Positions 23,071 through 36,717 of a stretch of DNA of 64,000 bases are shown here, in pieces; the first letter of the stretch is position 1, and the number at the start of each line of letters is the position of its first letter. The position numbers and the translations under genes are program-made. This DNA comes from Photobacterium sp. TY1-4. Its GTDB lineage: Bacteria; Pseudomonadota; Gammaproteobacteria; Enterobacterales; Vibrionaceae. The notes under the pieces are model-generated. The model was not told the DNA's origin, did no database searches, and was given only the letters and a program-made list of their open reading frames with translations. The stretch spans positions 1,736,001 to 1,800,000 of the forward strand of contig NZ_CP099734.1 of the NCBI RefSeq assembly GCF_025398175.1. The letters are read 5' to 3'.

Positions 23071-23098
23071 ATTTAACATAATATACATAATGCGCACT
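23071..23098 (-). other. dif: dif site: chromosome dimer resolution site and left junction (attL) of the prophage
   Basis: The 28-bp site reads, on the minus strand, XerC arm AGTGCGCATTA, centre TGTATA, XerD arm TTATGTTAAAT. This is the dif1 sequence I know from V. cholerae chromosome 1. The XerC arm faces the prophage. Since both arms are canonical, the site should still serve XerC/XerD-FtsK dimer resolution even with the phage inserted. Confidence 0.93.
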
Positions 23099-23367
23099 GA
23101 GTGGTACTTTTTTAACATGTAATGAGTCACTTTGGAAACCTGCAATCGATAGCCTTAAAAACCCTTTGGAAACAGTTAGTTAAATGAAGTCTTGGCCATT
23201 TTCGGCTTGTTGGTAACACGGTAATTTCTTGTGCCTGATATCAAGGCTTTGCTGACCATGATGGTAATTATTTGCGGATTCCGCTGTTTGATAGTCGTCA
23301 TGAATCAACACCCTTGCAATCAATCGAAAAAAACTTTGATAAACGAATAATTTTTGCGAGGTTCATC
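23099..23367. other. Non-coding region between dif and the DUF3653 gene
   Basis: 269 bp inside the left end of the prophage. I see no ORF with a ribosome site. It presumably holds the promoter of the regulator at 23368; AT-rich stretches lie around 23330-23360. Confidence 0.4.
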
Positions 23368-23832
23368 ATGCTGCATGAATCATTTAAACGACTCTTTTGG
23401 CGTACTTTCGATGGCATTGACCAAGCGGCAGCATGGTTTCATGTCCGTCCCATTACCGTTAAACGCTGGCTGTCCGGCGAAATTGATGTGAATCCGATGG
23501 CGGAAAAATTACTGATTATCCGGGCCCGTGGCTACCTGCCGGATGATACCCGTTGGCAAGGCTTCCGGATTGATGAAGACTATTGCGTAATTGTCACGCC
23601 TGAGGGTCGCCGTTTCAGCCCCAAGGAATTGGAATCATGGGCACTCCGCTATGATGAGTATCACGCGCTGAAACGGATGTACGAGCTGGACTATGTCCCG
23701 GTGCGAACCAATGTTGTCACGCCGTTGCCGTTTCGTGGTGGTCGTCGCCTGCAATCGCCACAAAGTGACACCGTGACAAAAGATAAAAAGAAGACTTATC
23801 GTAAGGCTAAAGCCAGACGTGTCAGCAAATAA
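23368..23832 (+). CDS. Phage regulator-like protein (DUF3653 family)
   Basis: 154 residues from the ATG at 23368 (GAGGTT upstream); a longer in-frame reading from 23272 has no ribosome site. The HTH-like start (GIDQAAAWFHVRPITVKRWLSGEI) is followed by PMAEKLLIIRARGYLP and PEGRRFSPKELESWA, then a basic tail (KKKTYRKAKARRVSK). I recognise this layout from DUF3653 proteins of Vibrio filamentous phages (VSK/VEJ type), where it is a putative DNA-binding protein. Its presence in a capsid-type phage suggests exchange of regulatory genes between unrelated phages that share dif as integration site. Confidence 0.75.
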   Translation: MLHESFKRLFWRTFDGIDQAAAWFHVRPITVKRWLSGEIDVNPMAEKLLIIRARGYLPDDTRWQGFRIDEDYCVIVTPEGRRFSPKELESWALRYDEYHALKRMYELDYVPVRTNVVTPLPFRGGRRLQSPQSDTVTKDKKKTYRKAKARRVSK

Positions 23833-23856
23833 CTCGCCCGCCTGTAGTTATGAAAA

Positions 23857-23874
23857 AGCCCGCGATTGCGGGCT
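23857..23874. terminator. Bidirectional terminator at the end of the late operon
   Basis: AGCCCGC / GCGGGCT stem with an A run on the left and T-rich sequence on the right, between convergent genes. An 18-bp hairpin with a single changed base recurs at 38145-38162 outside the prophage. Confidence 0.8.
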
Positions 23875-23878
23875 TGTC

Positions 23879-24157
23879 TTAATTGGTGTCGTACAAGTAA
23901 CTTGAAATCAGCTCTGCATGGATGGCCAGCCCTTGCACGGTGCTCAACAGATGCTCTTCGTCCCAGTTCGGGTGAAGCTCTTTTGCAAGTGAATACATCG
24001 CATCTTCAAATGCATCACCATCAATGGCAACACCGTATTTACTGAACGCATCATTCAAAGCGAGATGAAAACGCTTTTGGTCACGTGGGTGTGATGTGTG
24101 CCAAGTTTCAATTTGAAGCCATGGTTTTAAGCATTCCTGCAAGTCTTCGATTGTCAT
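23879..24157 (-). CDS. Hypothetical protein, last gene of the late operon
   Basis: 92 residues from the ATG at 24157 (GAGGGAAGT upstream); an ATG five codons earlier is less well placed. Soluble, acidic and helical, with no membrane segment and no motif that I recognise. It follows a roughly 100-bp gap after the previous gene, so it may be an accessory gene rather than a virion gene. Confidence 0.6.
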   Translation of the reverse strand: MTIEDLQECLKPWLQIETWHTSHPRDQKRFHLALNDAFSKYGVAIDGDAFEDAMYSLAKELHPNWDEEHLLSTVQGLAIHAELISSYLYDTN

Positions 24158-24253
24158 ACTTCCCTCTGACATTTAATCAAAATCAAACACTACACGGGAT
24201 ATTCTCACACCTAACCATAGGAATTCTTTGGTTTTTTATGACCATGGATAACA

Positions 24254-24433
24254 TCACTCTTTTTCGTGACTCCACTCCAACTTCATAAGCCGCTTTTCAT
24301 GCTGAGCCAGCATTTTTTGTAACTCAGCTAACACGGTTTCGTGGGCTTTGACAGCCCGGAACAGCAGATAACACATAATCAGGGTTGGCGGGTCGATACC
24401 CAGCTCGGTGAACAACTTAATCAGCTCGCCCAT
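24254..24433 (-). CDS. Small membrane-associated protein, lysis cluster
   Basis: 59 residues. One hydrophobic segment (PPTLIMCYLLFRAV) is followed by a charged coiled coil (AELQKMLAQHEKRLMKLEW). The ATG at 24433 follows the AGGGGG ribosome site typical of this phage. The layout, one short membrane segment plus a coiled coil beside a holin-like gene, fits a spanin-like or antiholin role, which is inference. Confidence 0.65.
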   Translation of the reverse strand: MGELIKLFTELGIDPPTLIMCYLLFRAVKAHETVLAELQKMLAQHEKRLMKLEWSHEKE

Positions 24434-24842
24434 GTAAGCCCCCTAACCTGTTTTTATGCCAATTTTCGATGGCTTCCCGCAGCATCCGGCGGAATCCAAA
24501 TGAGTCGATGTAGACCATTGCCAAGCCGTACCAGTAGTATTCCGGCACCGTGTTGAGCGCGGCGAATCCGACATCGATATACGGCACCATGCCGGGCACA
24601 AAGCACAAAACCATCGGCGTGGTGGTAATCAACAGCAGGTATTCGTCCTTCCAGCCGCGCTGGGCGATACTGAGCCGGTCAAGCTCGGCGGCGTTGTCGT
24701 CGCTGGTTTCAATCCGGCGGATTTTAGCCTGGGTCTCGGCTTCCCGGATGCGGTCGGTATGCTCCCTCGCCTTTGCTTTGTTGGCCTGCCACTGCTGGAA
24801 CAGCGACAGACCGCCGGAAACCACCAAACTGAATAATCCCAT
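24417..24842 (-). CDS. Holin-like membrane protein (three-helix type)
   Basis: 141 residues from the ATG at 24842, which overlaps the previous stop as TAATG and has AAGGA at good distance; the ATG at 24851 has its ribosome site too close. A first hydrophobic helix (GLFSLVVSGGLSLF) is followed by a charged coiled coil (residues 20-60) and two further membrane segments (LLLITTTPMVLCFVPGM, YYWYGLAMVYIDSFGF). This order resembles the 3-TM holin family. It lies directly downstream of the murein hydrolase gene. Confidence 0.68.
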   Translation of the reverse strand: MGLFSLVVSGGLSLFQQWQANKAKAREHTDRIREAETQAKIRRIETSDDNAAELDRLSIAQRGWKDEYLLLITTTPMVLCFVPGMVPYIDVGFAALNTVPEYYWYGLAMVYIDSFGFRRMLREAIENWHKNRLGGLHGRAD

Positions 24843-24943
24843 TAGAGCCATCCTTTTTGCTTCATGTACTTGAGCGCGTAGGCACCGATAATCGCCCCGG
24901 CGACGCTGACGGCGATAGATGCCGCGGCTTTCTTGGCATTCAT
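24842..24943 (-). CDS. 33-residue hydrophobic peptide of the lysis cluster
   Basis: ATG at 24943 preceded by AAGGGGTG. It overlaps the end of the murein hydrolase gene and itself ends in the TAATG junction with the holin-like gene. One alanine-rich membrane helix (SIAVSVAGAIIGAYAL) between short basic ends. Too short for function assignment; translational coupling on both sides argues that it is real. Confidence 0.65.
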   Translation of the reverse strand: MNAKKAAASIAVSVAGAIIGAYALKYMKQKGWL

Positions 24944-25419
24944 GCGAGTTTCACCCCTTTCATCACATCGCTGATTGGATACCGGTGGCCGACTTCCATT
25001 CGGGCCATGGCCTGAATAATCACCGCTGCGGTATCGTCATTCTCGACGTCAACCACTTGGTGCTTGCCGTAGCCGGTCCAACGGCTGACCATGTTGGCGT
25101 AATGGTCGCTGTTGTTTTCATGGCTGGGTGCGAAGGTATGCACAATGTCGTGAATGGTCTTCACGCCCCGGCGTTTGTAGCTGCGCAGGATGCGGGCCGC
25201 AGCCCGGAATCCCCATTTCGGCTCCTCGAAAATGGCGAACCGGCCGTCGGTGCCGACTTGGCCGCGCCATTGATTGCGCTCGCTGTATTCGATGTTTAGC
25301 GGATTGTGGTTACGGATGCCCCGAGCTTGTCCCATTGTCTTATCGTCCTGTGATTTGTTGCGTGAAATTCCGAAAATCAGCGCCATGGCGGCCATGAGGT
25401 ATAGCGGCCAGTAACGCAT
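24940..25419 (-). CDS. Virion-associated murein hydrolase / transglycosylase-like protein
   Basis: 159 residues. An N-terminal membrane anchor (YWPLYLMAAMALIFGI) is followed by RGIRNHNPLNIEYS and DGRFAIFEEPKWGFRAAARIL, a signature shared by phage structural lysins of the lysozyme-like fold. In PM2-type phages such a protein opens the cell wall at entry or exit. The start codon overlaps the upstream stop as TGATG. Which residue is the catalytic acid cannot be settled here. Confidence 0.75.
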   Translation of the reverse strand: MRYWPLYLMAAMALIFGISRNKSQDDKTMGQARGIRNHNPLNIEYSERNQWRGQVGTDGRFAIFEEPKWGFRAAARILRSYKRRGVKTIHDIVHTFAPSHENNSDHYANMVSRWTGYGKHQVVDVENDDTAAVIIQAMARMEVGHRYPISDVMKGVKLA

Positions 25420-26516
25420 CAGTAAAACCCGATACCGACCGGCATGGTGCTGTACTGAAGCCAGAAGTTAAAACCAAGGCTAAAGCTGGTTAGCAGCGTG
25501 TCGTAATCGGCCTGGCTAAATTGCACTGTGACTGAATCCGGCTTGATGTCAGTCACCACGGCGCTGGTATAACTTCGGCAATTGAGAATGATGTGTTTTT
25601 GAGGATTGAAGTAGTATGGTAAGTACCAATCAAAACCATATTTAACACTGCGGGTCGCGTCGTTTCTCTCAGTCTTAGCACTACTCAGGGAGACAAAATC
25701 CTGAAACATGCCGTAACTGTCAGGCTGATGATGTTCGACAAATCGGGTTGGGCTATCTCCGTCAACGTCACAATGCCAAAGGGCCGCGTTTTGGATATAT
25801 CCGCTGAGACCGCCTTCAATTTTGATGTACAGCGCGACTGTACCCGTTGCAGACTGCCCCCACCGACGGGCTTTAAATTCCCCGGTCTCCAATGTAATTG
25901 GCTCAGTAACAGGCACATTCTGGTCAAACGTGTATGTTTGCTCTGACTGAGACGACCAGTAATTCTTTCTGACTTGGGCATCTGGAAATCCCACTTCGGC
26001 AATGCCGACAGTTACTTTTGTACCGACATCGCCAGCTATCGCAAATCGCCCCTTCAATCGGTTATGTTTGACGCCATTCGTCGGGACGTTTAAGACCTGA
26101 TATAAGGTAAAATCAGAGGCGTAATACCTTACCCCTGCGCTTTCCTTGTCATAGTCACCGATAAAATATTCGGGTAAGCCAATACTGAAAATTCGAGAAG
26201 GCGCTACGGTGCTGGGGACTTCAACCGCCCAATGATTCACAACAAGCATCGAGCCGCGCCCATTACCAATAGTGCGAGACAAGTCCGGTGCCTGACCTGC
26301 AATCATGCAGATGTTTCGCGATGGAAGAGTGCCGCTTTCAGACTCAACGTAAGAAAATTCGTTGAATCGCGGATTCGCAAGCAGGTTTTTTGCCCCTTTC
26401 AGCCCCGCCATTTCCTGATACAGGGCTTCAACGGTCATTTCCATCTGGTCGGCCAGATATTCAATCTTATTGCGGGCGCTGCCTGCTGGCAGCAAGTCGC
26501 GAAGTGGTTTTGTCAT
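25419..26516 (-). CDS. Putative receptor-binding spike tip protein
   Basis: 365 residues. An N-terminal helical stretch (residues 1-40) is followed by NLLANPRFNEFSYVES, the opening strand pattern of carbohydrate-binding-module-like jelly rolls, then a long beta-rich region and a C-terminal domain rich in aromatic residues. No membrane segment. It overlaps the shaft gene at 26513 by 4 bp. Position beside the repeat protein suggests that it forms the distal, host-recognising part of the vertex spike. In size it compares with PM2 spike protein P1 (about 335 residues); homology is not established. Confidence 0.6.
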   Translation of the reverse strand: MTKPLRDLLPAGSARNKIEYLADQMEMTVEALYQEMAGLKGAKNLLANPRFNEFSYVESESGTLPSRNICMIAGQAPDLSRTIGNGRGSMLVVNHWAVEVPSTVAPSRIFSIGLPEYFIGDYDKESAGVRYYASDFTLYQVLNVPTNGVKHNRLKGRFAIAGDVGTKVTVGIAEVGFPDAQVRKNYWSSQSEQTYTFDQNVPVTEPITLETGEFKARRWGQSATGTVALYIKIEGGLSGYIQNAALWHCDVDGDSPTRFVEHHQPDSYGMFQDFVSLSSAKTERNDATRSVKYGFDWYLPYYFNPQKHIILNCRSYTSAVVTDIKPDSVTVQFSQADYDTLLTSFSLGFNFWLQYSTMPVGIGFY

Positions 26517-27337
26517 CGTGTGACCTCAATCATCTGGAGAGTGTCGCCGTCGGTTCCGGTGAACGACAGCGCGGCACTGGTTTCGAGTTTCAGTTGCTCT
26601 CCGGCGGCCAGCTCCCAGCCGGTGCCAAGAACAATAGCGGCAGTGTTGGCCGGACCGGCTTTGAGCAGGATGTGACAGCGTGACGTATTTTCGGCAATGT
26701 CGATTTTCCCAGCGGTCACGGCCAGCGCGCTGCCGGACGCTTGCCCTGCAATCACCGGCTTGGTCAACAGCGGATTTGTCGCATATACCTTCACCGCCTG
26801 CCCGGTTTCGAGCTGCACTTTCGGCAGGCTTTTGACCGCAATTTCCTGCCCGGTGGCCAGCTTGACGTCAGGCAACCCAGTGACGGCGACTTGCTGATTT
26901 TCTTTCAGTGACACCGCCGGAAGTGACGACACCGCGATACGCTGATACTGCGCAATGCGGACCGCAGGCAGTTCCGACACTTCGACGCTCTGATAAGGGG
27001 CAATTTTTACGGACGGTATGGTGCCGATATTGACCTCCTGCTCGGGTGACAATGTCACCGACGGCAGCGTCGTAACCTCAACTTTCTGGCCGTCCGTAGG
27101 CGGGATGTAGCGACCGAAACCACAAATAATGGTGACGGTGCCCGCCTCGCCCATGTTCTCGACCGTGACCATGCCGGTCAGCTTGGGGTCGATAATCTGC
27201 GCGCCCTGCTTGAGCTGATAGCCGCCGCGCTCGGTGGTGACGCTCACCATGTCCGGGCAAGCGTCGATGTAGAGAAACTCCCCCACGGCCTGAAACTGGA
27301 GCCGCTGCCGTGGCTGCATGTATTGATTCAAACTCAT
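26513..27337 (-). CDS. Spike shaft protein with six 16-residue beta repeats
   Basis: 274 residues. Residues 1-80 form a compact beta domain, perhaps the base. Residues 91-186 are six consecutive 16-residue units of pattern (L/I)P-x-V-x-(L/I)-x3-Q-x-(V/I)-x-(V/I)-x2, with a degenerate seventh at 75-90. Residues about 190-274 form a C-terminal beta domain. A regular alternation of hydrophobic residues with P and Q at fixed positions is what fibrous beta-spiral shafts show. It lies between a membrane-anchored coiled-coil gene and the tip gene, so a vertex spike shaft is the natural reading. Confidence 0.7.
   Translation of the reverse strand: MSLNQYMQPRQRLQFQAVGEFLYIDACPDMVSVTTERGGYQLKQGAQIIDPKLTGMVTVENMGEAGTVTIICGFGRYIPPTDGQKVEVTTLPSVTLSPEQEVNIGTIPSVKIAPYQSVEVSELPAVRIAQYQRIAVSSLPAVSLKENQQVAVTGLPDVKLATGQEIAVKSLPKVQLETGQAVKVYATNPLLTKPVIAGQASGSALAVTAGKIDIAENTSRCHILLKAGPANTAAIVLGTGWELAAGEQLKLETSAALSFTGTDGDTLQMIEVTR
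26780..27067 (-). repeat. 48-bp tandem coding repeat (six copies) in the spike shaft gene
   Basis: Six in-frame units of exactly 48 bp encode the 16-residue protein repeat. The units are diverged at DNA level, so the repeat is conserved mainly as protein pattern. Confidence 0.85.
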
Positions 27338-27340
27338 GAT

Positions 27341-27910
27341 TTACCCCTTCAACGTTAATAGGCCCAGAAACCCAAGCACCAACCCGACAGTGATAGTCAT
27401 TTGCTTGGTAGTCGCAATCTGCCCGCCATCGGCATTGACCTCGGCCAGCTCTTTAATGGCCTGCAAATTTTCACTGTTCTGCTGAGCCTGATTGCCTGCC
27501 AGCCCGGCGAGCATTTGCAGGTTTTCGCCGTGCGCGCTGCTCACCTCATCAATGGCCTTGGCGGAAATCTCATTGCTGTACTGCAACGCCTCGCTGCCGA
27601 ACGCGAACGCCGAGTTCAGCGCCTTGTTGTTGCTGTCGAGCGCATCGCGGCCAAAGTCGAGCGAGGCATCAATCGCGTGCTCGCCCATATCGAGCGCGGC
27701 TTTCGAGACTTCGGTGTTGCTTGTTAATGCCAGCTCGCCCAGCTCGGTGGCGGCTTCCATCGCCCCGTGGTCAGTCATTGTGACATTGACGTTAGAGTTG
27801 TTAACGCCGGACACAGCTACCCCGAGGTTGTCGCCACCGATGGCGTTTTGGCCGCTGGTATTGGTTGTGGTCGTAGTGTTCTTACTTGAACTTTTACCGC
27901 CGCCTCCCAT
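27341..27910 (-). CDS. Membrane-anchored coiled-coil structural protein
   Basis: 189 residues. A glycine/serine/threonine-rich start (GGGGKSSSKNTTTTTNTS) and a short beta segment are followed by a long alanine-rich helical region (residues 50-160) with alternating charge. A C-terminal membrane helix (MTITVGLVLGFLGLLTL) ends the chain. Likely a virion protein that bridges the internal membrane and the capsid or spike. The start overlaps the upstream stop. Confidence 0.62.
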   Translation of the reverse strand: MGGGGKSSSKNTTTTTNTSGQNAIGGDNLGVAVSGVNNSNVNVTMTDHGAMEAATELGELALTSNTEVSKAALDMGEHAIDASLDFGRDALDSNNKALNSAFAFGSEALQYSNEISAKAIDEVSSAHGENLQMLAGLAGNQAQQNSENLQAIKELAEVNADGGQIATTKQMTITVGLVLGFLGLLTLKG

Positions 27911-28320
27911 CAGTCCCCCTGCATCATGAGTGACAACACGGCGTCATGCGCCGTCTTGTCGGTAATTGAAAACCCGAACCGCTTGAGGATACGGGTCATC
28001 CCTTGGCGCACGGTATGGTATTTAATTTGGCTGTAGCCCTGAGATTTCACTGCCTCGATAATCGTCGGGGCGGCCGCAACCAGCCCGCGCCCGGTCATCG
28101 CCAGAATTAGGTAGCCATTGTCTTCCGTGACTATGCCCACGAAGCGGACCGAGACGCCTTTTCCCTTGAGGTGATACAAGCTGGCCTGTTTGCGTTTTAC
28201 TGCTTCGCAGCAAAAATCAAACTCCGCCTTGGCCTGATTTACCCCGTTGAACGCCGGACGCAACAAAGCAAGCTGGGCATTGATGTCGGCACGGTTGGGC
28301 CGTATCAGTTGAAAACGCAT
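27910..28320 (-). CDS. GNAT-like fold protein of the virion gene cluster, function unknown
   Basis: 136 residues from the ATG at 28320, which follows AAGGGGGG and overlaps the previous stop as TAATG; an upstream in-frame start at 28347 is less likely. A beta strand with an acidic turn (VRFVGIVTEDNGYLILAMTGRG) is followed by a helix (AAPTIIEAVKSQGYSQI), then HTVRQGMTRILKRFGF, which has the cadence of the last helices of acetyltransferase folds. Acetyl-CoA binding residues are not clear. It could be a structural protein that kept the fold. Confidence 0.5.
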   Translation of the reverse strand: MRFQLIRPNRADINAQLALLRPAFNGVNQAKAEFDFCCEAVKRKQASLYHLKGKGVSVRFVGIVTEDNGYLILAMTGRGLVAAAPTIIEAVKSQGYSQIKYHTVRQGMTRILKRFGFSITDKTAHDAVLSLMMQGD

Positions 28321-28517
28321 TAGCCCCCCTTGCTCGTCAGAATCCACATGCCCGCAAGGACAACAACAAGCAGCAACAGATTCGAGTTGCCGCCGCCCAT
28401 GTTGATAGAACCGACGCGAAAGCCAGACTCGTTATTGGCTTTCGCGCTTGATGGTCCGGCAGCTCCGCCGCCCGCGTTAATCGGCATTGAACCGGAGTTC
28501 GTCACCCCCGGAATCAT
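28320..28517 (-). CDS. Small glycine-rich single-helix membrane protein
   Basis: 65 residues. A glycine/asparagine/serine-rich N-terminal 45 residues is followed by one membrane helix (LLLLVVVLAGMWIL) and a short basic end. Typical of minor proteins of phages with an internal membrane. The start codon overlaps the previous stop as ATGA. Confidence 0.7.
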   Translation of the reverse strand: MIPGVTNSGSMPINAGGGAAGPSSAKANNESGFRVGSINMGGGNSNLLLLVVVLAGMWILTSKGG

Positions 28518-28666
28518 GAGTTACCCCCTGTCACTTTGTTGTAGAGCCACAGGGCAATCAGCACGGCAATCAACAGCTTCACGGTGCGGCTGACCGCCTC
28601 ACCCGTGAACAGGCCGCCGACATAGCCGATACTTCCCGCCAGCAGCGGCCAGAACAATAACGGCAT
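28514..28666 (-). CDS. 50-residue membrane protein of the virion cluster
   Basis: ATG at 28666 preceded by AGGGGG, stop overlapping the next start as ATGA. Two hydrophobic stretches (LLFWPLLAGSIGYVGGLF and KLLIAVLIALWLY) separated by a charged turn. Probably an integral virion-membrane protein. Confidence 0.75.
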   Translation of the reverse strand: MPLLFWPLLAGSIGYVGGLFTGEAVSRTVKLLIAVLIALWLYNKVTGGNS

Positions 28667-28668
28667 GG

Positions 28669-28956
28669 CTATTTCCCCCTTAGCATGAACATCATGAAGA
28701 CCATCAGCACCAACATGCCCCCGCCGAGCAGCATCAACGTGGTGTTGCTGCTCAATCCACCCTGATTGTGGATAGGCTGGCCGGTTGGCTGTTTTGCTGG
28801 CTCCTCATGTTGCGGCGTGCGGTTTTCTTCCGGTGCAGACGAGGCCACATTGTCGGCCTCGTTTTGCATCCATGCGTCAACCCAGTTCCCACCGCCTTCC
28901 ACAGCTGAATCCCAGATACCGCCGAGGGATTCGCCCCAGTCGTCAAGTAAACTCAT
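28669..28956 (-). CDS. Single-helix membrane protein downstream of the capsid gene
   Basis: 95 residues. An acidic, tryptophan-containing N-terminus (DDWGESLGGIWDSAVEGG) and a polar linker are followed by a C-terminal membrane helix (LMLLGGGMLVLMVFMMFML) with a basic end. The start is preceded by TAAGGGGG, 9 bp after the capsid stop. The acidic head could contact the capsid protein. Confidence 0.72.
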   Translation of the reverse strand: MSLLDDWGESLGGIWDSAVEGGGNWVDAWMQNEADNVASSAPEENRTPQHEEPAKQPTGQPIHNQGGLSSNTTLMLLGGGMLVLMVFMMFMLRGK

Positions 28957-28965
28957 GACTCCCCC

Positions 28966-30050: not shown

Positions 30051-30075
30051 TTTGAATATGTGAGGCAAATCAAAA

Positions 30076-31398
30076 TCAGTAAAGGTTTAGAGTCAATGTT
30101 GTCTGAGAGATATAGCGACTAACTAACTTCAAAGATAAAGACCAATCGCCATTCATAATATTCTGAAGGTGGTTAGTCCACTTGATTGCATAATCCTCAT
30201 CCAGATTTAGCCAGCTGGAGTCTTCACATTCAAAGCCTACGACAAAAACTAAGGCCATATGGGCATCAGGGTAGCCAGTATTGATGACTTCTTTTGAAAA
30301 ACTTTCCACACCTAGTACATTAGCAAAATCTTTAGCACTAGCTCTATTTACACACAGCTCCTGACTAAGTGTAGGGTAAAATACCGCGACAAAAATGCTA
30401 ACCATTCTTATAACCACTAAAAACCAATTTTGTGATTTTAGCCCCCCTTGTGATAGCACGTCGTATGTTTCCAAATGCCTTACATAGGTTTCAACTTCTC
30501 TTAGTGATAACTTAGCGTGTTCAATAAGGCGAGAAATAACATCCATTTTCCCCTCATTTAACAAAGAATCTGGAAGTTGGGAGCTACGCTCAACTAAATT
30601 CCTGTAGTGTATCAAAGATGTATTTACAACAGTGTGGCCATCCAAGTACTTATCGGGCAATGTTACTCTATATTTTACAAATTTATCCAAGTACTTTTCA
30701 GAATTAACGCTATCTCCATAACAATGGTTAATAGAAGCTTTTAGTTGATTTAAGTTGGTGACCAAGACAAATTTTACGCCTTTAATGTTAAATGTATGCT
30801 TAATAACTTCAAGCATATTCACAGCAAAGTTTGGTTTGCACCTATCTAGCTCGTCAATGAAGAATATGATTTTTTTATGTTCTGCTAAGCCTTCCAAAGT
30901 GCTCTGTAGTGCATCCAAGCTTTCAGATGCTTTCACATGGTCTTTTAGCATTGACTCTACTGATGCATCTATTGCCTTGTCAGCTACTTGCTTAATTTCT
31001 TTATCAAAGCCGTCTGCGATACTATCAGTATCTTGCTTTAGCAAATGACCAATTCCTGCTTTGATGGTTGTCTTTAAGCCATACCTAATAGCCGGGAGGA
31101 TTTTTTTTATTACTGGTAGCCTTTCATCATCAGGAAGTAGTTTTAAAACTTCCGCAAGAATTGTGAGTAGCGGCTCATCTGCGTGGTCTGCCTTAAAAGC
31201 GTCCACATAAATTATGTGATGCTCATCAGAACCCCATAGTTTGATTAGTTTTTCGCAAAACTCAGTTTTACCGGTACCCCAGCCACCATCAAGGACTAAT
31301 GGTGAAATATCAATATCAGATGAAAGCAAAGAGATTAAGTTCTGAGCTATTTTACGCCTAGCGAACTCATCACGGTTTTCGAATGAATATTCAGACAT
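30076..31398 (-). CDS. KAP-family P-loop NTPase, AT-rich cargo gene
   Basis: 440 residues. Walker A is GGWGTGKT (38-45) and Walker B is IIFFIDELDRCK (177-188), which contains the DELDRC signature of KAP NTPases. A sensor-like FVLVTNLNQLKASI follows (210-222). The usual double membrane insertion of many KAP proteins is not obvious; only a weakly hydrophobic stretch is seen near 340-355. The gene is clearly more AT-rich than its neighbours and has its own promoter and terminator. KAP proteins include phage-exclusion factors such as PifA, so an anti-phage or superinfection-exclusion role is plausible, not shown. It is not a virion gene by any visible criterion. Confidence 0.88.
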   Translation of the reverse strand: MSEYSFENRDEFARRKIAQNLISLLSSDIDISPLVLDGGWGTGKTEFCEKLIKLWGSDEHHIIYVDAFKADHADEPLLTILAEVLKLLPDDERLPVIKKILPAIRYGLKTTIKAGIGHLLKQDTDSIADGFDKEIKQVADKAIDASVESMLKDHVKASESLDALQSTLEGLAEHKKIIFFIDELDRCKPNFAVNMLEVIKHTFNIKGVKFVLVTNLNQLKASINHCYGDSVNSEKYLDKFVKYRVTLPDKYLDGHTVVNTSLIHYRNLVERSSQLPDSLLNEGKMDVISRLIEHAKLSLREVETYVRHLETYDVLSQGGLKSQNWFLVVIRMVSIFVAVFYPTLSQELCVNRASAKDFANVLGVESFSKEVINTGYPDAHMALVFVVGFECEDSSWLNLDEDYAIKWTNHLQNIMNGDWSLSLKLVSRYISQTTLTLNLY

Positions 31399-31425
31399 AG
31401 ATGCACTCCAGTTGTCAGCCCCCTA

Positions 31426-31455
31426 TTTATACTCTATCCACATGAAAATTTGAAA
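31426..31455 (-). promoter_or_regulatory. Promoter of the KAP NTPase gene
   Basis: On the minus strand TTTCAA, 18-bp spacer, TATAAA (complement of 31426-31431), then GGAG a few bases before the start codon. It lies in the 66-bp AT-rich gap after the packaging ATPase gene. Confidence 0.5.
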
Positions 31456-31464
31456 GAATATTAA

Positions 31465-32130
31465 TCACCAAAGAATAACACCCTTCACCCACTCTTTCCC
31501 GTCCTGCAAGATGTACTCGAGCTTTTTCAGCTTGACGATTTCTGTGGCCGGAATGCCGGTTTTCTGCTGTAGGTAGCGGGCGCTGTCGTCGGCCTTCTGC
31601 ATCATCACACAGGCAAACTGGCAGTTGTCGATAATGGTTTTCGACACCTCCTGCCCGCGCTGGAACATGTTCACGGTGTGCAGGCCGTACTTGCGTCCCA
31701 GCCGTAGAATCTTGCCATGGTAGCCAGTTGCTTTGCCCGCGGTATTGGTATGCTCGGCCACTTCCTCGCAAATCACTTTGAGCGGCTTTTTGTGTTTGCC
31801 GTTCCCGGCCCCCCAGACCACCATGCAGAACTTGTCGAAATCGGCTTCGGTGGTTTCGTGGTCAGGGGCATACGCAATCTTGAATCCCTGATTGGTTTTG
31901 CGTCCGGCATACAGCGCCTTGGCAAACTCTCTCAGGTTGGGATAGCTGCGGACCTTGCGCCCGGCCAGCTCGCCGTCGTAGTCCTTGAGCGGGTCAAAGA
32001 TGGCCACTTGGTCGGTTGGTTTGATGAATTTCTTTTTGGCTGCGGAAGTTTTCCCGCAGCCTGACATACCAACCACATAAGCATGATGATTATTCAATGC
32101 GTTGTTTTGGTTGATAGGTTGGAGGCTCAT
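31465..32130 (-). CDS. Genome-packaging ATPase (A32/PM2 P9-like)
   Basis: 221 residues. Walker A is GMSGCGKTS near residue 23. Strand-end LKVICEEVAEHTN fits the Walker B position (ICEE) of FtsK/HerA-type packaging ATPases, and a following FQRGQEVSKTIIDNCQFACVM segment fits the arginine/sensor region. This compact ATPase is the second hallmark of tailless double-jelly-roll phages and pumps DNA into preformed capsids. The ATG overlaps the upstream stop by 4 bp. A degenerate second copy lies at 37087-37305. Confidence 0.85.
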   Translation of the reverse strand: MSLQPINQNNALNNHHAYVVGMSGCGKTSAAKKKFIKPTDQVAIFDPLKDYDGELAGRKVRSYPNLREFAKALYAGRKTNQGFKIAYAPDHETTEADFDKFCMVVWGAGNGKHKKPLKVICEEVAEHTNTAGKATGYHGKILRLGRKYGLHTVNMFQRGQEVSKTIIDNCQFACVMMQKADDSARYLQQKTGIPATEIVKLKKLEYILQDGKEWVKGVILW

Positions 32131-32621
32131 GCCACCTCCTGATTAAAATCATCGTTTGCGGCTTCTTTTGTCCGCTTGGCCTGCTCACGGCGAGCGGCGG
32201 CGAGGTCTTCAGCCTTGAGCTGCTTCACCTGCATATAGCTGGACAGACTCAGCATCCCAATAGCGGCCACGGCCATGATTTCGTCCATGTACTTAGCGAG
32301 CCATGGCGGCGGGTTGCCGCCGTACTTCACAATCAGCGGGGCCACTTTCAGCGCCACCCCTTCGGCCTGCTCGGGGTTGAACGTGAAATCCGGGTGAACC
32401 ATGGTTTTCATGGTCTGCTCGATGGTCATCAGGCCGACAAACACGATTCCGGCAGCAGCTTCCTGCTCGATATTGGCCTGCTCGGCCTTGGCTTCGGCGG
32501 TTGCCGGGTCAAAGTCATCGTCCAGGCTGTTCAGGAAGTCTTTTTCTTCCTGCTCGCAGCGGGTATCCACCGCCTCAGCTTGGCCAGTTTCCGCATCATG
32601 TACGGTCAGTTCATCTTCCAT
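32127..32621 (-). CDS. Phage membrane protein with acidic N-terminus, function unknown
   Basis: 164 residues from the ATG at 32621 (AAGGAG upstream); the frame is open further but without start signals. The N-terminal 60 residues are strongly acidic and probably disordered. Residues about 75-110 form VALKVAPLIVKYGGNPPPWLAKYMDEI, followed by one membrane helix (IMAVAAIGMLSLSSYM) and a basic coiled tail. It precedes and overlaps the packaging ATPase gene by 4 bp, so it may help to dock the ATPase at the virion membrane. Confidence 0.65.
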   Translation of the reverse strand: MEDELTVHDAETGQAEAVDTRCEQEEKDFLNSLDDDFDPATAEAKAEQANIEQEAAAGIVFVGLMTIEQTMKTMVHPDFTFNPEQAEGVALKVAPLIVKYGGNPPPWLAKYMDEIMAVAAIGMLSLSSYMQVKQLKAEDLAAARREQAKRTKEAANDDFNQEVA

Positions 32622-32647
32622 TGCGCTATCTCCTTGCTTGGTTTGGG

Positions 32648-33094
32648 TTACAGTCGGGTAATCGCCCCGCCGGTCAGGCCGCCGAGGATGATGCCGGTTA
32701 AGACGGCTTTCCACATGCTCGGCTTGTTTTCCGGCTCCGGTTCGGGTTGTTTCGGTTCCGCCTTGACCGGGGCCGGTACGGGAATCGCTTCCGGTTCGGT
32801 TAGCTGCGGCGCTGGTTTTGGCTCAGGTACGGGTTCCGGTTTCGGCTCAGAAACCACAGGTTCAGCGGTTTGCCCGGCTTGGTGCAGGGCTTCGAGCGTC
32901 GGGTAATGCACCTTGAACTTGCCCTGCCAATAAGCGCCGGTCTGCTGGTTGGTGCCGCAGTCATCACAAATCGAATACAGGAATTTCGCCCGCTTGCCAC
33001 GGGCGCGATGAATGGTACGGACGTTGCCGCACTCGCAACGGTTAATGCCTTCGACTTTGTTGGTCGAGGTGCGTACCGGCATCACATCAGCCAT
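32648..33094 (-). CDS. Zinc-ribbon, proline-rich, tail-anchored membrane protein
   Basis: 148 residues from the ATG at 33094 (AAGGGGGC upstream). Residues about 17-47 carry CECG and CDDCG, a zinc-ribbon pattern. Then follow roughly 60 residues rich in P, E, K and V (PKPEPVPEPKPAPQ), and a C-terminal membrane helix (AVLTGIILGGLTGGAI). It looks like a DNA- or protein-binding head on an extended stalk fixed to a membrane. No known homologue comes to mind. Confidence 0.68.
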   Translation of the reverse strand: MADVMPVRTSTNKVEGINRCECGNVRTIHRARGKRAKFLYSICDDCGTNQQTGAYWQGKFKVHYPTLEALHQAGQTAEPVVSEPKPEPVPEPKPAPQLTEPEAIPVPAPVKAEPKQPEPEPENKPSMWKAVLTGIILGGLTGGAITRL

Positions 33095-33254
33095 GTTTGC
33101 CCCCTTGCTCCAGCTCGATGAGCTTTTCGTTGACGGTTTGCATCCACACCAACACCAAGCGCAGCGGAGCCATGATTTTGCTGGCAAACGGGTTGCGTTT
33201 GGCCTTCTCTACTTCGCCTTTCAGTTCGTTGGTAATCTGAGTCAGTTTGTCCAT
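33087..33254 (-). CDS. Small helical protein downstream of Rep
   Basis: 55 residues from the ATG at 33254 (AAAGGA upstream); it overlaps the next gene by 8 bp. Two amphipathic helices (KLTQITNELKGEVEKAKR and PLRLVLVWMQTVNEKLIELE). Function unknown. Confidence 0.6.
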   Translation of the reverse strand: MDKLTQITNELKGEVEKAKRNPFASKIMAPLRLVLVWMQTVNEKLIELEQGGKHG

Positions 33255-33270
33255 TGATTGTCCTTTCCGG

Positions 33271-35424
33271 TTAAACCGCAATTTGCAGTTGTTCATAGCA
33301 TTCAAGCTCTGCCATCCAAGCCGATAACTGGCTGGTTAGCTGCTGCTCGGTCGGTACATCCCTGTTGTGTGGTGCAAGCGGGTCGTTTCTCATCCCTTGC
33401 CAGTAGGCCCGGCGCTCTTGGTGGCGCTGGTACTGCGGTGCGTATGCTTTGCGGGCCACCGCACTGGCTTGGGTGTATGCGTTGATGCTGTCGGCATCGT
33501 CGCTGCGCACGGTCATCGACCAACCGCGTGCGCCTGCCGCCCAAAGCAGAAAATCAAACGCTTTGGTTTCGGCTTGCTCGCCATCGAATGACATGCAGAA
33601 AATGTTGCGGGTATGGGCGTAAACCTCCCGGCTTTTGATATGGTCCCGGCTCGCCTTCATTTGGTTCTCAAGGCGGATAATCCGGGCCGTGAGCTTGTTA
33701 ATGTCCTGCTCTGGTTTTTTGGTTCGTTTCGCTATCGCTTTCGCCTTAATGGTTTGGTCTAGTTGCTTTTCCAGCCGCTTGAGGTGGCGGTTAATCGGCT
33801 TGCGCCACTGCTCCAGCTTGTAACCGCATTCTTTGATAATTGCGGCCATGTTATCGGCCTCGAAACTGGCGATACATTCCCACGCCGGGGCGCGGCTGCA
33901 ACGGGCGATGTTGTAGCGGTTGCCCTTAATCAGCCCTTGGTCGGCGTTTTCACCTTTGGCGGCATAGCCCACCGCCTTGATGATGTAGCTGCCGGCGGCC
34001 ATCGGTTTCTTGATGCGCTCAAGGTGGGCAAATCCGTTACCCCATAACTTTTCTAACCGCTGTGCCCATGCCGGGAACAGGTTTTTCGGCACCGACCAGC
34101 GCAGCAACACATGCACATGCGGGTTCGGCTCGCCGTCGTCATTGGCCGGGCATTCCGCCACCCAGATGTAATGAAAATCAGCCGGGAGCTGCGTCGGGCC
34201 GACATTGCTCGGCTGGCTGTGGCCGGGAATGCGCTTTTCCGTCAGCTTGCAGTATTTGGCCCCGGTTTCGGTGTCTTGCTCTACGGTGTATGGGCTGTTC
34301 CAGCCGCGCTGATAGAGTTTCTTGGCCCCGTCGAGAAACCGGGAGACTTCCCGCCCGATGGTGGTTTCGGCCTCTCTAGTGATGGTGAATGCAGGCTCGG
34401 GCTTGAGAAACGTCGGTGTGTACGGCCCGGCAATCTCGCCGTTTTCGTTCATCACCTGCACCGTGCCGTCATCGAGAATCGTCACCGTCATACCGGGGTC
34501 ATCGGCCATGGTGTCAATGGCGCAGTAAGGCCCGGCGATGTCTTCGACAAACGGGGCCATATTGCGCTTGATGCTGACCGGGGTATGGGTGCCGTCGGTA
34601 CATTTAAGCTGCGGGCGGCCTTTGAGCATCGAGCGCGGGCCGCGCGTTTTGCTGGCTGGCAAAGGTGGCTCAGGCAAGGTGCAGTAAGGCGCGGCATCCC
34701 CTTCGACCATCCCGCCCATAATCCGGTTTCGCTCGGCTTGGTCGAATGTCAGGGTCAGGAAAGTGCAGAAACCGCCGTGACACGTGGCGACATAGGCACC
34801 GGCCTCGAAAATCTTGCTTACCGCCCGCTTGGTCAGTTGCTCGGTGTAGCGTTCCCCGGCCTGCGCATCCGGCGCGGCACTGCTCGGAGTCTGGGCGTAA
34901 TGCTGGATTTTGCATTGCCCGGACCACTCCCGTTTCATCAACCGGACGACGCTCGGGTTGAAATCCGGCTCGACGTTTTTCGCCTGGCCCTTTGGCGACA
35001 GAATCCGGGCCTCGGTATCGCCATCCAGCAGGTCATACATGACGTCATGGTTGAAGACAGACTCAGGGTTATCTATCGCGCACTTGCGGCGCTGTAGGTG
35101 CCGCTCCTGTCGCATCAGGCGGTCTAATTGGGCCTGCTGTGGGTGTGTCGGACTTTTGCGCCCTTGGACAAGCCTATTGTTTTCGGCCCTGCGGGCCGCC
35201 GCTTCGCGGAGGTGTTCGGCGTCAATCTTCGGTTGAGATAACACCTGCTTAACCTGCTGACGGGCAAAGAACTGATTCAGCTCATCGAGGCTATGCAAAT
35301 GGTTGCTTTTCTGGTTTTTGGAACCTAAAAAACCAGCTTCATAGCTGGCTAAATTCTTTTTGGTTCGGTCGGCGGGCTGAACGGCACCCGCGACATAGAG
35401 AAAATCGTTAGTTTTGAGTGTCAT
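33271..35424 (-). CDS. Rolling-circle replication initiator, two-tyrosine HUH type (PM2 P12-like)
   Basis: 717 residues. HUH motif 1 is FLTLTF (222-227), motif 2 is PHVHVLL with H436 and H438, and motif 3 is SYIIKAVGYAAK with Y480 and Y487 as candidate nicking residues. The two-tyrosine form is that of superfamily I initiators such as phiX174 A and PM2 P12. About 200 residues separate motifs 1 and 2, more than in compact family members; this insert (about 250-420) contains IDTMADDPGMTVTILDDG. The C-terminus is a long basic coiled coil (540-610). It nicks the origin and starts rolling-circle replication. The start overlaps the RHH gene by 17 bp. Confidence 0.9.
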   Translation of the reverse strand: MTLKTNDFLYVAGAVQPADRTKKNLASYEAGFLGSKNQKSNHLHSLDELNQFFARQQVKQVLSQPKIDAEHLREAAARRAENNRLVQGRKSPTHPQQAQLDRLMRQERHLQRRKCAIDNPESVFNHDVMYDLLDGDTEARILSPKGQAKNVEPDFNPSVVRLMKREWSGQCKIQHYAQTPSSAAPDAQAGERYTEQLTKRAVSKIFEAGAYVATCHGGFCTFLTLTFDQAERNRIMGGMVEGDAAPYCTLPEPPLPASKTRGPRSMLKGRPQLKCTDGTHTPVSIKRNMAPFVEDIAGPYCAIDTMADDPGMTVTILDDGTVQVMNENGEIAGPYTPTFLKPEPAFTITREAETTIGREVSRFLDGAKKLYQRGWNSPYTVEQDTETGAKYCKLTEKRIPGHSQPSNVGPTQLPADFHYIWVAECPANDDGEPNPHVHVLLRWSVPKNLFPAWAQRLEKLWGNGFAHLERIKKPMAAGSYIIKAVGYAAKGENADQGLIKGNRYNIARCSRAPAWECIASFEADNMAAIIKECGYKLEQWRKPINRHLKRLEKQLDQTIKAKAIAKRTKKPEQDINKLTARIIRLENQMKASRDHIKSREVYAHTRNIFCMSFDGEQAETKAFDFLLWAAGARGWSMTVRSDDADSINAYTQASAVARKAYAPQYQRHQERRAYWQGMRNDPLAPHNRDVPTEQQLTSQLSAWMAELECYEQLQIAV

Positions 35425-35623
35425 CAGTGACGGCCCTCTCTAACGATACATAACGCCCGGTTCGTACATCCCGAACCGTATTGATTGAAAAGTGGCGATT
35501 TGAGCAACAAACATCAGCCAACAGCTTAAATTCAGCCTCGACCGACTCAGGCACCCAGACCGTGACTTTCTTGAGTCCGAGCTGCATTTTTCGCTGCTCA
35601 TATTTGGCATTCCGGGAACTCAT
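35408..35623 (-). CDS. Ribbon-helix-helix-type small DNA-binding protein
   Basis: 71 residues. Basic start, then KKVTVWVPESVEAEFKLLADV, the strand-helix-helix pattern of Arc/CopG regulators. It lies directly before and overlaps rep, as copy-control regulators often do, so control of rep expression is a fair inference. It overlaps the upstream gene by 4 bp. Confidence 0.65.
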   Translation of the reverse strand: MSSRNAKYEQRKMQLGLKKVTVWVPESVEAEFKLLADVCCSNRHFSINTVRDVRTGRYVSLERAVTDDTQN

Positions 35624-35820
35624 ATCGCCCCCATCAAGCTCGTTAAGTCACGGCGAGATTGCGAGGCATCATTGAGGAACTGAACCGCCAAACGGTGCGA
35701 GCCCGAAAGGCGGTAGCTGCGGGCCAGATTGATGCTGGCCCGGACTTCATTTTTAAGCAGCCGGTAAACCGCCGCCCCCGCTTGGGGGGCTTTGGTCGCT
35801 TGCTTAGGGATTCTCAACAT
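35620..35820 (-). CDS. Small basic early phage protein, function unknown
   Basis: 66 residues, basic and mostly helical (VYRLLKNEVRASINLARSYRLSG). It overlaps both neighbours (4 and 7 bp), which supports its reality in the compact early operon. No recognised domain. Confidence 0.6.
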   Translation of the reverse strand: MLRIPKQATKAPQAGAAVYRLLKNEVRASINLARSYRLSGSHRLAVQFLNDASQSRRDLTSLMGAI

Positions 35821-36092
35821 GCGGCCCCCTTGCGATACTTCGCTAAGGCAGCCTGCAATTTGGGTGACTGCGGAATTTCGGACTTGCGCTTATTCAAGGC
35901 AACCAGATTGGAGGCTTTACTGGCATCAAACAGCTTTCGTAAAGTGTCGTACTCATGCTGATAAGCATACGCACAACTGATTAGCCGAGTAATGCTAGTG
36001 TAAGCGACGTAGGTGTCACTGGATTCATTGCGGCACACGCGCTGTGAGCGATAAAACTCTTTGAATAGATAGCGAGCGGATAAGTCAATCAT
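35814..36092 (-). CDS. Early phage protein, function unknown
   Basis: 92 residues from the ATG at 36092, which has a strong AAAGGAGG site; longer readings to 36167 lack one. Soluble, helical and basic at the end (NLVALNKRKSEIPQSPKLQAAL). No recognised domain. It overlaps its neighbours on both sides. Confidence 0.62.
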   Translation of the reverse strand: MIDLSARYLFKEFYRSQRVCRNESSDTYVAYTSITRLISCAYAYQHEYDTLRKLFDASKASNLVALNKRKSEIPQSPKLQAALAKYRKGAAC

Positions 36093-36265
36093 GCCGCGCC
36101 TCCTTTCGCCAGAAGTGCGCGGCGGGACTGAACCTGAAAAGATCGGCTGTAGCGGTAGTCTGCGCACCCGCGTGGTAATTTGTTCACTTTCTCCGGTTTG
36201 GGCGTTGTCAGGCGGAGTTGCTTAAACCGAGCTTTGAGTTGTTCAAGATGTTCGAGTCTGTCCAT
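36089..36265 (-). CDS. First gene of the early operon, small basic protein
   Basis: 58 residues from the ATG at 36265 (GGGG upstream); a start six codons earlier is possible. Charged N-terminal helix (DRLEHLEQLKARFKQLRL) and a basic C-terminus. It is divergent from the repressor-like gene at 36411, so its promoter lies in the shared 145-bp gap. Confidence 0.55.
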   Translation of the reverse strand: MDRLEHLEQLKARFKQLRLTTPKPEKVNKLPRGCADYRYSRSFQVQSRRALLAKGGAA

Positions 36266-36410
36266 GTCTGTATCCCCATACAAGCAAGTGCAATTAAGTG
36301 CTTATCATCTTGTGTCAACATTTATTCAACGTCAACTTGAGGGCAACTATGGTTATGAACAAAATGATCGCCTAAAATTTAACAAATACAGGGAATTGGC
36401 AGGCTTATTT
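36266..36410. promoter_or_regulatory. Divergent control region of the prophage
   Basis: 145-bp AT-rich gap between the first early gene (minus) and the repressor-like gene (plus). A short direct repeat AGTGC - AATTA - AGTGC lies near 36287-36301. It is the natural place for the operator of a lysis/lysogeny switch; I could not define a full operator. Confidence 0.45.
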
Positions 36411-36674
36411 ATGACTTACACAAATACATTATTGGATATGGTCAAAAACAGATATGACCTACCCTCAGACTATAAACTTGCCCAGAAATTAGGCGTAAGC
36501 AGGTCACGTGTGAGTAAATGGAGAAATGAGCTAAACTCTATGGACTGGGATGTGGCTTTCCAAATAGCTGATTTACTTGGATTAGACGATCAAAATGTGG
36601 TTCATAGTCTGCTTGAGGACAAATATCAAAACCCTCGCCTAATCAATGCCTTACGAGATAAGCAACTAGCTTAA
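36411..36674 (+). CDS. Repressor-like HTH protein (DUF3693 / Cro-CI type)
   Basis: 87 residues from the ATG at 36411. An XRE-like HTH is clear: LPSDYKLAQKLGVSRSRVSKWRNEL with a following VAFQIADLLGLD. The layout matches the DUF3693 regulators that I know from filamentous phages of gammaproteobacteria. It is divergent from the early operon and the last gene before the right junction, so it is the best candidate for the prophage repressor. Confidence 0.75.
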   Translation: MTYTNTLLDMVKNRYDLPSDYKLAQKLGVSRSRVSKWRNELNSMDWDVAFQIADLLGLDDQNVVHSLLEDKYQNPRLINALRDKQLA

Positions 36675-36689
36675 TATTGCTTGTTCGAA

Positions 36690-36717
36690 TTTTACCCTAC
36701 TATACATAATGCGAACT
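36690..36717 (-). other. Right dif-like junction (attR) of the prophage
   Basis: On the minus strand: XerC arm AGTTCGCATTA (one difference from dif), centre TGTATA (identical), XerD arm GTAGGGTAAAA (7 of 11 matches). The XerC arm and centre are kept while the XerD arm is poor, as expected if the latter came from the phage attachment site. Confidence 0.8.

Follow-up and report, generated by a model that had tools for sequence, protein, structure and literature searches.

A Corticovirus-like Photobacterium Prophage at dif Probably Relies on Host XerC/XerD and a Xaf-like Activator

The 64,000-nucleotide stretch of Photobacterium sp. TY1-4 DNA analyzed here (the window; C1:1736001-1800000 of host genome G000) holds a corticovirus-like (PM2-type) prophage of ∼13.6 kb at positions 23071-36717, with a dif-type site at each end. 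Judged from its sequence, the element is probably a temperate, membrane-containing double jelly-roll (DJR) phage of the PM2/NO16 kind that would use the host recombinases XerC and XerD in the manner of TLCphi, assisted by a Xaf-like activator of its own. Host Xer recombination with a phage-encoded activator is indicated by the either-or occurrence of integrase and Xaf genes among relatives, the matched central regions of the attachment sites, a natural empty site, and an exact free contig in a relative. On balance, we also favor a broader reading, in which attP and the Xaf activator form a portable Xer cassette interchangeable with the tyrosine integrase in DJR membrane viruses; an element would carry one or the other, many swaps would have occurred, and the activator subfamily would track the grammar of attP. 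Integration of such phages at dif is already published; among the matches listed in the literature search, none described the activator/attP cassette in them.

The Element and Its Boundaries

The host genome comprises 5.6 Mb in four contigs, two of which (C1 and C2) are chromosome-sized. The following features of the window define the element, its ends, and its viral type.

23071-23098, minus strand: intact dif and left attachment junction, AGTGCGCATTA TGTATA TTATGTTAAAT; XerD arm outermost (host side), central region TGTATA, XerC arm on the element side
23368-23832, plus strand: Xaf-like gene encoding a DUF3653 protein, candidate Xer(D) activation factor (PF12375; NF040522 below cut-off)
28966-29820, minus strand: P2-type double jelly-roll capsid (P2_N/P2_C; phrog_8536, 4e-98; PDB 2vvf the best fold match)
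31465-32130, minus strand: P9-like packaging ATPase (phrog_2666, 3.9e-38)
36690-36717, minus strand: right attachment junction, AGTTCGCATTA TGTATA GTAGGGTAAAA; XerC arm outermost, then TGTATA, then a degenerate, element-specific XerD arm, GTAGGGTAAAA
36733-37292, strand not assigned: debris outside the element, with remains of a transposase-like gene and a decayed piece of the ATPase gene of an older, related element

On the left, the site is a perfect dif and the sole match in the window at three or fewer mismatches to dif (0 of 100 shuffled controls). The right site differs from dif at one position of the XerC arm and four of the XerD arm, with no mismatch in the central region. A looser dif pattern has three matches in the whole genome, namely both element ends on C1 and one site on C2. 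An uninterrupted dif in a congener (G045, presumed P. atrarenae) provides the matching empty site. Its left flank aligns to window positions 21366-23099 and its right flank to 36691-36955; since these alignments overlap in the site alone, the ends of the element map to the dif-type sites, as the initial annotation had proposed, and not elsewhere. The predicted excised circle is 13,619 bp long, and its attP would read AGTGCGCATTA TGTATA GTAGGGTAAAA, with a good XerC arm, the central region of the host dif, and a degenerate XerD arm. All 28 letters of this predicted attP are identical to one end of another Photobacterium prophage (L080).

In the 20 open reading frames (ORFs) of the element that were scanned, a set that leaves out some tiny ORFs, there was no integrase, recombinase, or transposase match over the Pfam cut-off and none in PHROG, in line with the claim that the prophage lacks an integrase. 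A helix-turn-helix (HTH) gene gave a chance-level match to HTH_Tnp_1_2 (0.092, below the Pfam cut-off). XerD and XerC of the host genome score over their NCBIfam cut-offs. By sequence, the element thus has the features of an integrative mobile element exploiting Xer (IMEX): a dif-mimic attachment site at dif and no recombinase of its own in a host with XerC and XerD.

To the right of the element, the ATPase remnant matches at 52.8% over 72 amino acids (E = 5.8e-17), next to transposase pieces with E values of 1.7e-4 and 0.006. A decayed relative with a truncated capsid gene lies at the dif of C2. This copy, together with the ATPase debris beside the right junction, indicates that the sites have been used repeatedly. 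An Rfam scan of 22500-38500 found nothing over the gathering score.

The capsid protein identifies the viral type. Its Pfam matches, P2_N (1.6e-44) and P2_C (1.6e-38), cover both halves of the PM2 P2 fold. The predicted structure has a predicted local distance difference test (pLDDT) score of 92.2, and its best PDB match is PM2 P2 itself (2vvf; TM 0.80/0.84); compared with viral models, it is closest to the capsid of Bacillus phage Wip1. Among solved capsids, the capsid profile matches 9t9v at 1.3e-102 and 2vvf at 5.3e-33, a ranking to be read with the fact that the profile includes the NO16 capsid, which may be 9t9v. A P2-type DJR major capsid protein and a P9/A32-type packaging ATPase near its gene are among the marks of the PM2/P2-type DJR viruses (Vinavirales), and the element has both. 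The corticovirus-like identity given in the initial annotation is therefore borne out by sequence and predicted fold alike.

A Xaf-like Gene Lies beside the Intact dif

The initial annotation took the dif-like sites for the only recombination signals and overlooked the DUF3653 gene, which begins 270 bp inside the intact dif and is directed away from it. Its product matches PF12375 (DUF3653) at 1.2e-21, and in NCBIfam a single model is strongly matched, NF040522, "VC1465 family Xer recombination activation factor" (44.8 bits, 1.1e-11). Going by the name of this model, we take XafT of TLCphi to be VC1465. In one V. cholerae IMEX, XafT is described as the element's own XerD-activating factor, which permits escape from dependence on FtsK (PMC9765430). 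The window protein is best described as a homologue that may work like XafT, without being filed as a member of NF040522. Eight further Xaf proteins, drawn from all three attachment-site classes described below and including that of NO16, all match the same model below its cut-off (1.7e-6 to 1.6e-12). PADLOC gave no match for the Xaf gene and a weak one for the HTH gene.

Gene 7 of phage NO16 encodes a homologue of the window protein (58.8% identity). It is annotated as S-adenosylhomocysteine hydrolase, and the NO16 authors treat it as a signature gene, the product of which is predicted to contain a DNA-binding domain (PMC9966536). The comparison suggests a possible function for the gene that carries this label in NO16 and in other genomes.

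Integrase or Xaf in Vibrionaceae Relatives

A capsid profile search of 329 Vibrionaceae genomes found relatives in 95, and 123 regions outside the host genome were analyzed. Calls were made with a hidden Markov model (HMM) for tyrosine recombinases and another for DUF3653; recombinases outside the dif-bounded element were left uncounted. On this basis, 64 loci have a recombinase only, 48 have a Xaf gene only (no recombinase in the element), none has both, and 11 have neither. When only the 103 loci that span 19 kb or more are counted, the corresponding numbers are 58, 44, 0, and 1; ten of the 11 regions with neither gene are shorter than 19 kb and reach a contig end. The Xaf gene is present in all 32 loci assigned to a Xer class and in none of the 64 integrase loci. 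A host-type dif occurs in 37 of the 123 regions, comprising 36 of the 58 without a recombinase by the first HMM plus L162, and in 0 of the 64 recombinase loci.

One seed of that first HMM was wrong, being an antisense ORF from L178, and the model recovered nine of the 11 PF00589 loci of the host genome. A second HMM, built from true XerC, XerD, and other seeds, likewise recovered nine, and the two together recovered all 11. With the second HMM no locus was lost and seven were gained (L073, L079, L088, L090, L115, L136, and L174), all through ORFs outside the element: beyond dif in five cases, beyond a weaker dif-type site in L079, and beyond the far site in L174. The recombinase of L162 also lies outside its dif and is uncounted; L153 has a further ORF outside, which matches PF00589 weakly and below the cut-off.

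The capsid tree has 131 rows and was made by a quick method that gave long-branch warnings; pieces of fewer than 200 aligned residues and L120 (the free contig described below) were left out. The recombinase label changes 22 times on this tree, at least 15 of the changes being forced by starred branches. Because related rows repeat each other, a pair test was applied, with the two traits coded apart and the rows with neither gene kept. In 15 independent pairs differing in recombinase, Xaf differed in the opposite direction in 11-13 and in the same direction in none (median p = 0.0005).

The nearest capsid relative of the window element is itself of the integrase type. This locus (L076, a presumed P. 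atrarenae prophage) shares 95% capsid identity, 80%-89% DNA identity in the structural block, and 69% in the ATPase gene, but has a tyrosine integrase (PF00589, 6.4e-21) beside a gene that by eye is DusA-like and shows no DNA match in the rest, including the replication region. The two are a pair with 95% identical capsids and different integration modules. If attachment site and activator do form an exchangeable cassette, Xaf proteins would be general licences under which imperfect sites recombine with dif outside the control of FtsK.

Five recombinase loci (L109, L122, L123, L128, and L129) have a candidate attP match ("attP?") near the capsid gene and no dif; these were taken as chance. The real sequence gave 37 such matches and 39 dif sites, against 5 and 0 in the reversed-sequence control. 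A search for circular relatives by exact terminal repeats (15-200 bases) found none in 29 loci, many of which are cut stretches.

Three Attachment-Site Grammars

Partner sites were sought around 40 dif sites, on the same strand and with an identical central region and one arm kept; 25 were found, and the opposite strand, the reversed sequence, and 40 integrase loci all gave 0. Classes C6 and D are drawn from this search. The lists for these and for a third class, C7, were made by hand, with thresholds chosen during exploration. In C6 (17 of the 123 loci, plus the window and L015), the XerC arm is kept, the central region is identical, and the XerD arm is degenerate. Class D (six loci) keeps the XerD arm and the identical central region and has a degenerate XerC arm. 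In C7 (nine loci), a far site has both arms and a central region of 7-8 bp that is unlike that of dif but shares at least its first base; we only infer this class, and its far sites could belong to neighboring elements. Sites with a 7-bp center number 21 in loci without recombinase, two in recombinase loci, and one in reversed sequence. Centers of 11 and 12 bp are also enriched (17 and 12, against one and two in recombinase loci), and these sites are at least partly shadows of dif. The 27 unclassified loci of the 123 comprise 11 with an attP-like site only, five with a dif and no accepted partner, and 11 with neither.

The Xaf frame keeps close to the site. Its distance from the intact dif is 138-253 bp in 16 of the 17 C6 loci (for L150 the script took the gene of a neighboring element) and 141-190 bp in five of the six class D loci (11 bp in L099); in C7 the corresponding distance, to the far site, is ∼150 bp. 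On the Xaf tree the attachment class changes three times (minimum two, with C7 as one starred group; L151, of class D, sits on a very long branch), compared with nine times on the capsid tree for the same rows, indicating that the site type travels more with the activator than with the capsid.

A CTX-like folded attP, which would need two inverted dif-like sites ∼90 bp apart at the attachment end, was also considered and is not favored for the 14 loci (C7 or unclassified) whose pairs were listed. Inverted dif-like pairs (nine or fewer mismatches summed) occur in 22 loci without recombinase, two recombinase loci, and no reversed sequence. Among the 14 listed loci, L154 has a pair at its far site with seven mismatches summed, and most of the close pairs are at the host dif, where they reflect a conserved host motif. 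In L143, an inverted dif-like pair (positions 2925 and 3087; 12- and 7-bp centers, 162 bp apart, nine mismatches) lies 1.4-1.6 kb outside the far site. It resembles the reviewed CTXphi-type attP and is perhaps part of a neighboring filamentous element.

Some genomes hold more than one copy. On G072:C2, a class D and a class C6 DJR prophage (L099/L150) share one dif, and on G049:C2, two related capsid genes (L070/L072) are ∼18 kb apart; both cases are possible tandem arrays. Three loci of one genome, presumed V. pectenicida (L143, L144, and L145), have an identical capsid; chromosome 1 carries one of them and chromosome 2 the other two, and their dif-type central regions differ.

Excision, Mechanism, and Alternative Explanations

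A free form was found for a relative. Genome G161 contains a class D prophage of 11,916 bp from site to site and a separate contig of 11,916 bp. After rotation, the two, joined in the site, differ at eight positions, and seven of these fall within the junction's XerC half, the pattern that recombination at the site would leave. From the match in length and sequence we infer that the contig is circular and is a natural excision product of this integrase-less relative. The circular genome of NO16 likewise has one attP of the window's type, located beside an HTH-type gene as in the window.

According to a review (PMC4246890), CTXphi integrates as folded single-stranded DNA (ssDNA) through XerC; VGJphi as double-stranded DNA (dsDNA) through XerC, with no homology beside the XerD arm; and TLCphi as dsDNA through XerD first, with XerC completing the exchange. 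None of the three relies on FtsK. The full match of the central region, the imperfect XerD arm, and the presence of a Xaf-like gene make the TLC-like route the best fit for the window. On this route the Xaf-like protein would activate XerD, and the canonical dif and imperfect attP would recombine without FtsK; XerC would complete the exchange and a perfect dif would be restored on one side. Excision would be the reverse of integration, after which the HUH protein could start rolling-circle replication. Attachment site and activator would thus act as a cassette in place of the tyrosine integrase of related viruses.

In a VGJphi-like, XerC-first exchange, XerC alone would exchange strands, replication would resolve the junction, and the DUF3653 protein would be only a regulator. 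The good XerC arm and degenerate XerD arm of attP would suit such a route, and so, in C7, would the match, in nine of nine loci, of one or more bases directly adjoining the XerC arm (a weak sign; the first base is T in eight). However, the class to which the window belongs matches dif over the whole central region, which is superfluous for exchange by XerC alone, VGJphi having no homology by the XerD arm (PMC4246890), and the linkage of the Xaf-like gene to the attachment module would be left without a reason. We regard XerC-first exchange as quite unlikely overall; it is a possible route above all for C7. A recombinase acting in trans from outside the element appears highly improbable, although a candidate exists: a PF00589 protein encoded ∼2.6 kb from dif2 on C2 (L011 13427-14398), with relatives (36%-65%) outside the element in seven of the 48 Xaf loci. 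A survey of V. cyclitrophicus also states that dif-targeting tailless prophages regularly have integrase genes (PMC11630473). Yet the dif2-type recombinase accompanies just those seven loci, none of the 11 PF00589 matches of the host genome is in or near the element, and the sites are of dif type with matched central regions; our guess is that the genes beside att in survey records L020 and L017, which are HTH transposase-type, may have been called integrase. It is also conceivable that the prophage is a dead remnant fixed at dif that has lost excision, given the older related fragment adjoining it, the decayed C2 copy with its truncated capsid gene, and the lack of a free circle in the assembly. 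Against this, the genes for capsid, ATPase, Rep, Xaf, and endolysin have uninterrupted reading frames and both sites share the central region, and we consider a remnant unlikely.

The TLCphi-like account for which we argue has to be held against a number of observations that count in the other direction. In eight of the 48 Xaf loci the ∼20-kb region does encode a tyrosine recombinase, located beyond the element, and seven of these eight are relatives (36%-65%) of the gene near dif2 of the host genome. With the seven outside recombinases counted, Xaf is opposite in 10 of 16 pairs in the median, and the median p rises to 0.0039 (range 0.001-0.065). These recombinases slightly lower the probability of the TLCphi-like account, of XerC-first exchange, and of the cassette, and raise that of action in trans. 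The window protein does not reach the curated NF040522 cut-off of 70 bits, and all nine Xaf proteins tested score 28-47.5 bits. A search of solved structures with Xaf gave no convincing match (best E = 0.0061). What is assumed of XafT beyond the review and short mentions is general background. The outer XerC arm of the right junction has one mismatch, which probably derives from the older element. A free circle of the window element was not seen in its own assembly, where the capsid profile matches only the window and the degraded C2 copy; the free contig comes from a class D relative, and the window is C6.

Relation to Known Systems

The initial annotation regarded the use of Xer by a membrane-containing icosahedral phage as little described. 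In fact, dif-type integration of membrane phages has been reported for NO16 ("Asemoviridae"; PMC9966536), V. cyclitrophicus tailless prophages (PMC11630473), Jorvik (PMC10589892), and the lipid-containing ssDNA phage PhiCjT23 (PMC9719478). Asemoviridae is a family of the International Committee on Taxonomy of Viruses (PMC12451628). XerCD/dif integration of NO16 was proposed by its authors; a term search of that paper's main text found none of the terms activation factor, attP, integrase, FtsK, and TLC (PMC9966536). Like the window element, NO16 (10.6 kb) has a DJR capsid, a putative ATPase, a Rep ∼40% identical to that of the window, one attP of the same form, and a DUF3653 homologue. The three kinds of gene that the authors use for Asemoviridae (capsid, ATPase, and "SAH"/DUF3653) are present in the window, yet the capsids are only 20% identical, and the window has a KAP NTPase as cargo. 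In a full-text search of open-licence literature, no published link of an activation factor to these phages was found among the matches listed, as far as the accessible text goes; three further matches deal with the typing of V. cholerae, with plasmids, and with a 9-kb region that contains a DUF3653 gene and a Zot-domain gene.

TLCphi, a satellite phage of V. cholerae, shares with the window a dsDNA dif-mimic attP and an XafT-type activator gene, and its integration is FtsK-independent (PMC4246890, PMC9765430). It differs in lacking virion genes (PMC4246890), whereas DJR virion genes are part of the window element, and its activator-like protein is below the NCBIfam cut-off. Integration through host Xer would mean that a mechanism of the TLCphi type also operates in a virus lineage that encodes icosahedral virions itself. 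Jorvik (Mestraviridae; PMC10589892) and PhiCjT23 (PMC9719478) resemble the window element in being membrane-containing, DJR-type phages with dif-like att, and Jorvik has no predicted integrase. They differ in their hosts; moreover, Jorvik inserts in a RuBisCO operon and the PhiCjT23 genome is ssDNA.

The 2024 Vibrio prophage survey did not decide between host recombinases and the phages' own integrases for tailless prophages located at dif, and its authors call the manner of integration in V. cyclitrophicus "inconclusive" (PMC11630473). Three of its records (PQ189336, PQ189338, and PQ189349) resemble the window element, with 61%-63% capsid identity, a related Rep, a Xaf homologue, and an attP-type site; by contrast, PQ189334 and PQ189346 of the same set have a tyrosine integrase and no dif-like site. 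Seven records were examined, and the three with an attP-type site (L017, L020, and L022) have no tyrosine recombinase. The remark in the survey that integrases are regular in dif-targeting tailless prophages is not borne out in the loci examined. In two of these three records, genes for HTH transposase-type proteins adjoin att, and a full-length relative encoded at the C2 dif shows weak matches to the rve "integrase core"; such a transposase may, as a guess, explain the "integrase" label.

Gene Content of the Prophage

The element is laid out as compact open frames, nearly all on the minus strand, with the Xaf-like gene opposite at the left end and the HTH gene opposite at the right end. The remaining features are as follows.

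23879-24172, minus strand: small gene of no assigned function (phrog_3439)
24254-24433, minus strand: small ORF without family match (Pfam and PHROG scans)
24417-24851, minus strand: phrog_2524 protein, in the lysis region by position (PHROG)
24940-25419, minus strand: endolysin-like protein (phrog_873 endolysin, 9.1e-50)
25419-26516, minus strand: putative spike or receptor-binding protein, by position only (weak phrog_12976, 2.2e-5)
26513-27337, minus strand: structural-region protein (phrog_12829)
27341-27910, minus strand: structural-region protein (phrog_12546)
27910-28320, minus strand: structural-region protein (phrog_10333)
28320-28666, minus strand: two small hydrophobic ORFs of 65 and 50 amino acids (by eye)
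28669-28956, minus strand: small protein (phrog_12673)
30076-31398, minus strand: KAP P-loop NTPase, cargo in the capsid-ATPase slot; PADLOC candidate defence PDC-S20 (PF07693, 4.3e-58; PDC-S20, 9.4e-165)
32127-32621, minus strand: phrog_12153 protein (PHROG)
33271-35424, minus strand: HUH rolling-circle replication initiator (PF23343, REP_ORF2-G2P, 9.7e-7, over cut-off; phrog_38601, 7e-141; HVH motif by eye)
35408-35623, minus strand: small protein (phrog_11804)
36411-36674, plus strand: Cro/CI-type HTH repressor candidate adjoining the right junction (phrog_4441, 9.7e-27)

The reading frames are open, including those for capsid, ATPase, Rep, Xaf, and endolysin. The HUH Rep and A32/P9-like ATPase named in the initial annotation are confirmed by the profile matches listed. 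With these frames open, the intact state proposed there is plausible.

In 120 of 124 loci, an ATPase relative is encoded no more than 6 kb from the capsid gene. The gap between the two genes exceeds 900 bp in 20 of the 120 (10 Xaf, three integrase, and seven unassigned loci). In the C2 relative the same slot holds a different protein, LmuB-like at 3e-5 (PADLOC). The best relatives of Rep in the phage collection (39.8%-47.6%) are phage records H41-H48, which at 32-38 kb are larger than corticoviruses; their size suggests that Rep was exchanged with another phage type.

The Terminus Neighborhood

A motif, ATTTACCATAAAATAnnTAAT, with an inverted XerD-like arm is located on the XerD side of dif at 22939-22959 (minus strand), 111 bp from the site. 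The host genome has exactly two copies, one beside the dif of each chromosome, the second at C2:430922-430942. One to three copies are present in 252 of the 329 Vibrionaceae genomes (backward-read control, 0). The motif lies 78-164 bp from dif at 26 of 38 sites and never on the XerC side; of the 12 sites that lack it there, six belong to class D, in which the element occupies that side. It is possibly an undescribed terminus element. The surrounding dif flank of ∼110 bp (22866-22976; C2 430781-430996) is conserved in Photobacterium, a 234-bp query being matched in 51 of 52 genomes, three of them (G083, G084, and G088) in dif alone. In the host genome, the dif flanks of chromosomes 1 and 2 are 99% identical over ∼200 bp, which suggests recent exchange between the termini.

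The tyrosine recombinase family of the dif2 gene (L011 13427-14398; ORFs in L073, L079, L088, L090, L115, L136, and L174) occurs outside prophages near dif-type sites and is perhaps a host terminus gene. HTH/rve-type transposase genes or remnants are also found beside dif or attP (L011 9312-10676; L020 1-930; L017 2065-2379; window ∼36733-37090). In their location these recall the dif-targeting IS1202 family.

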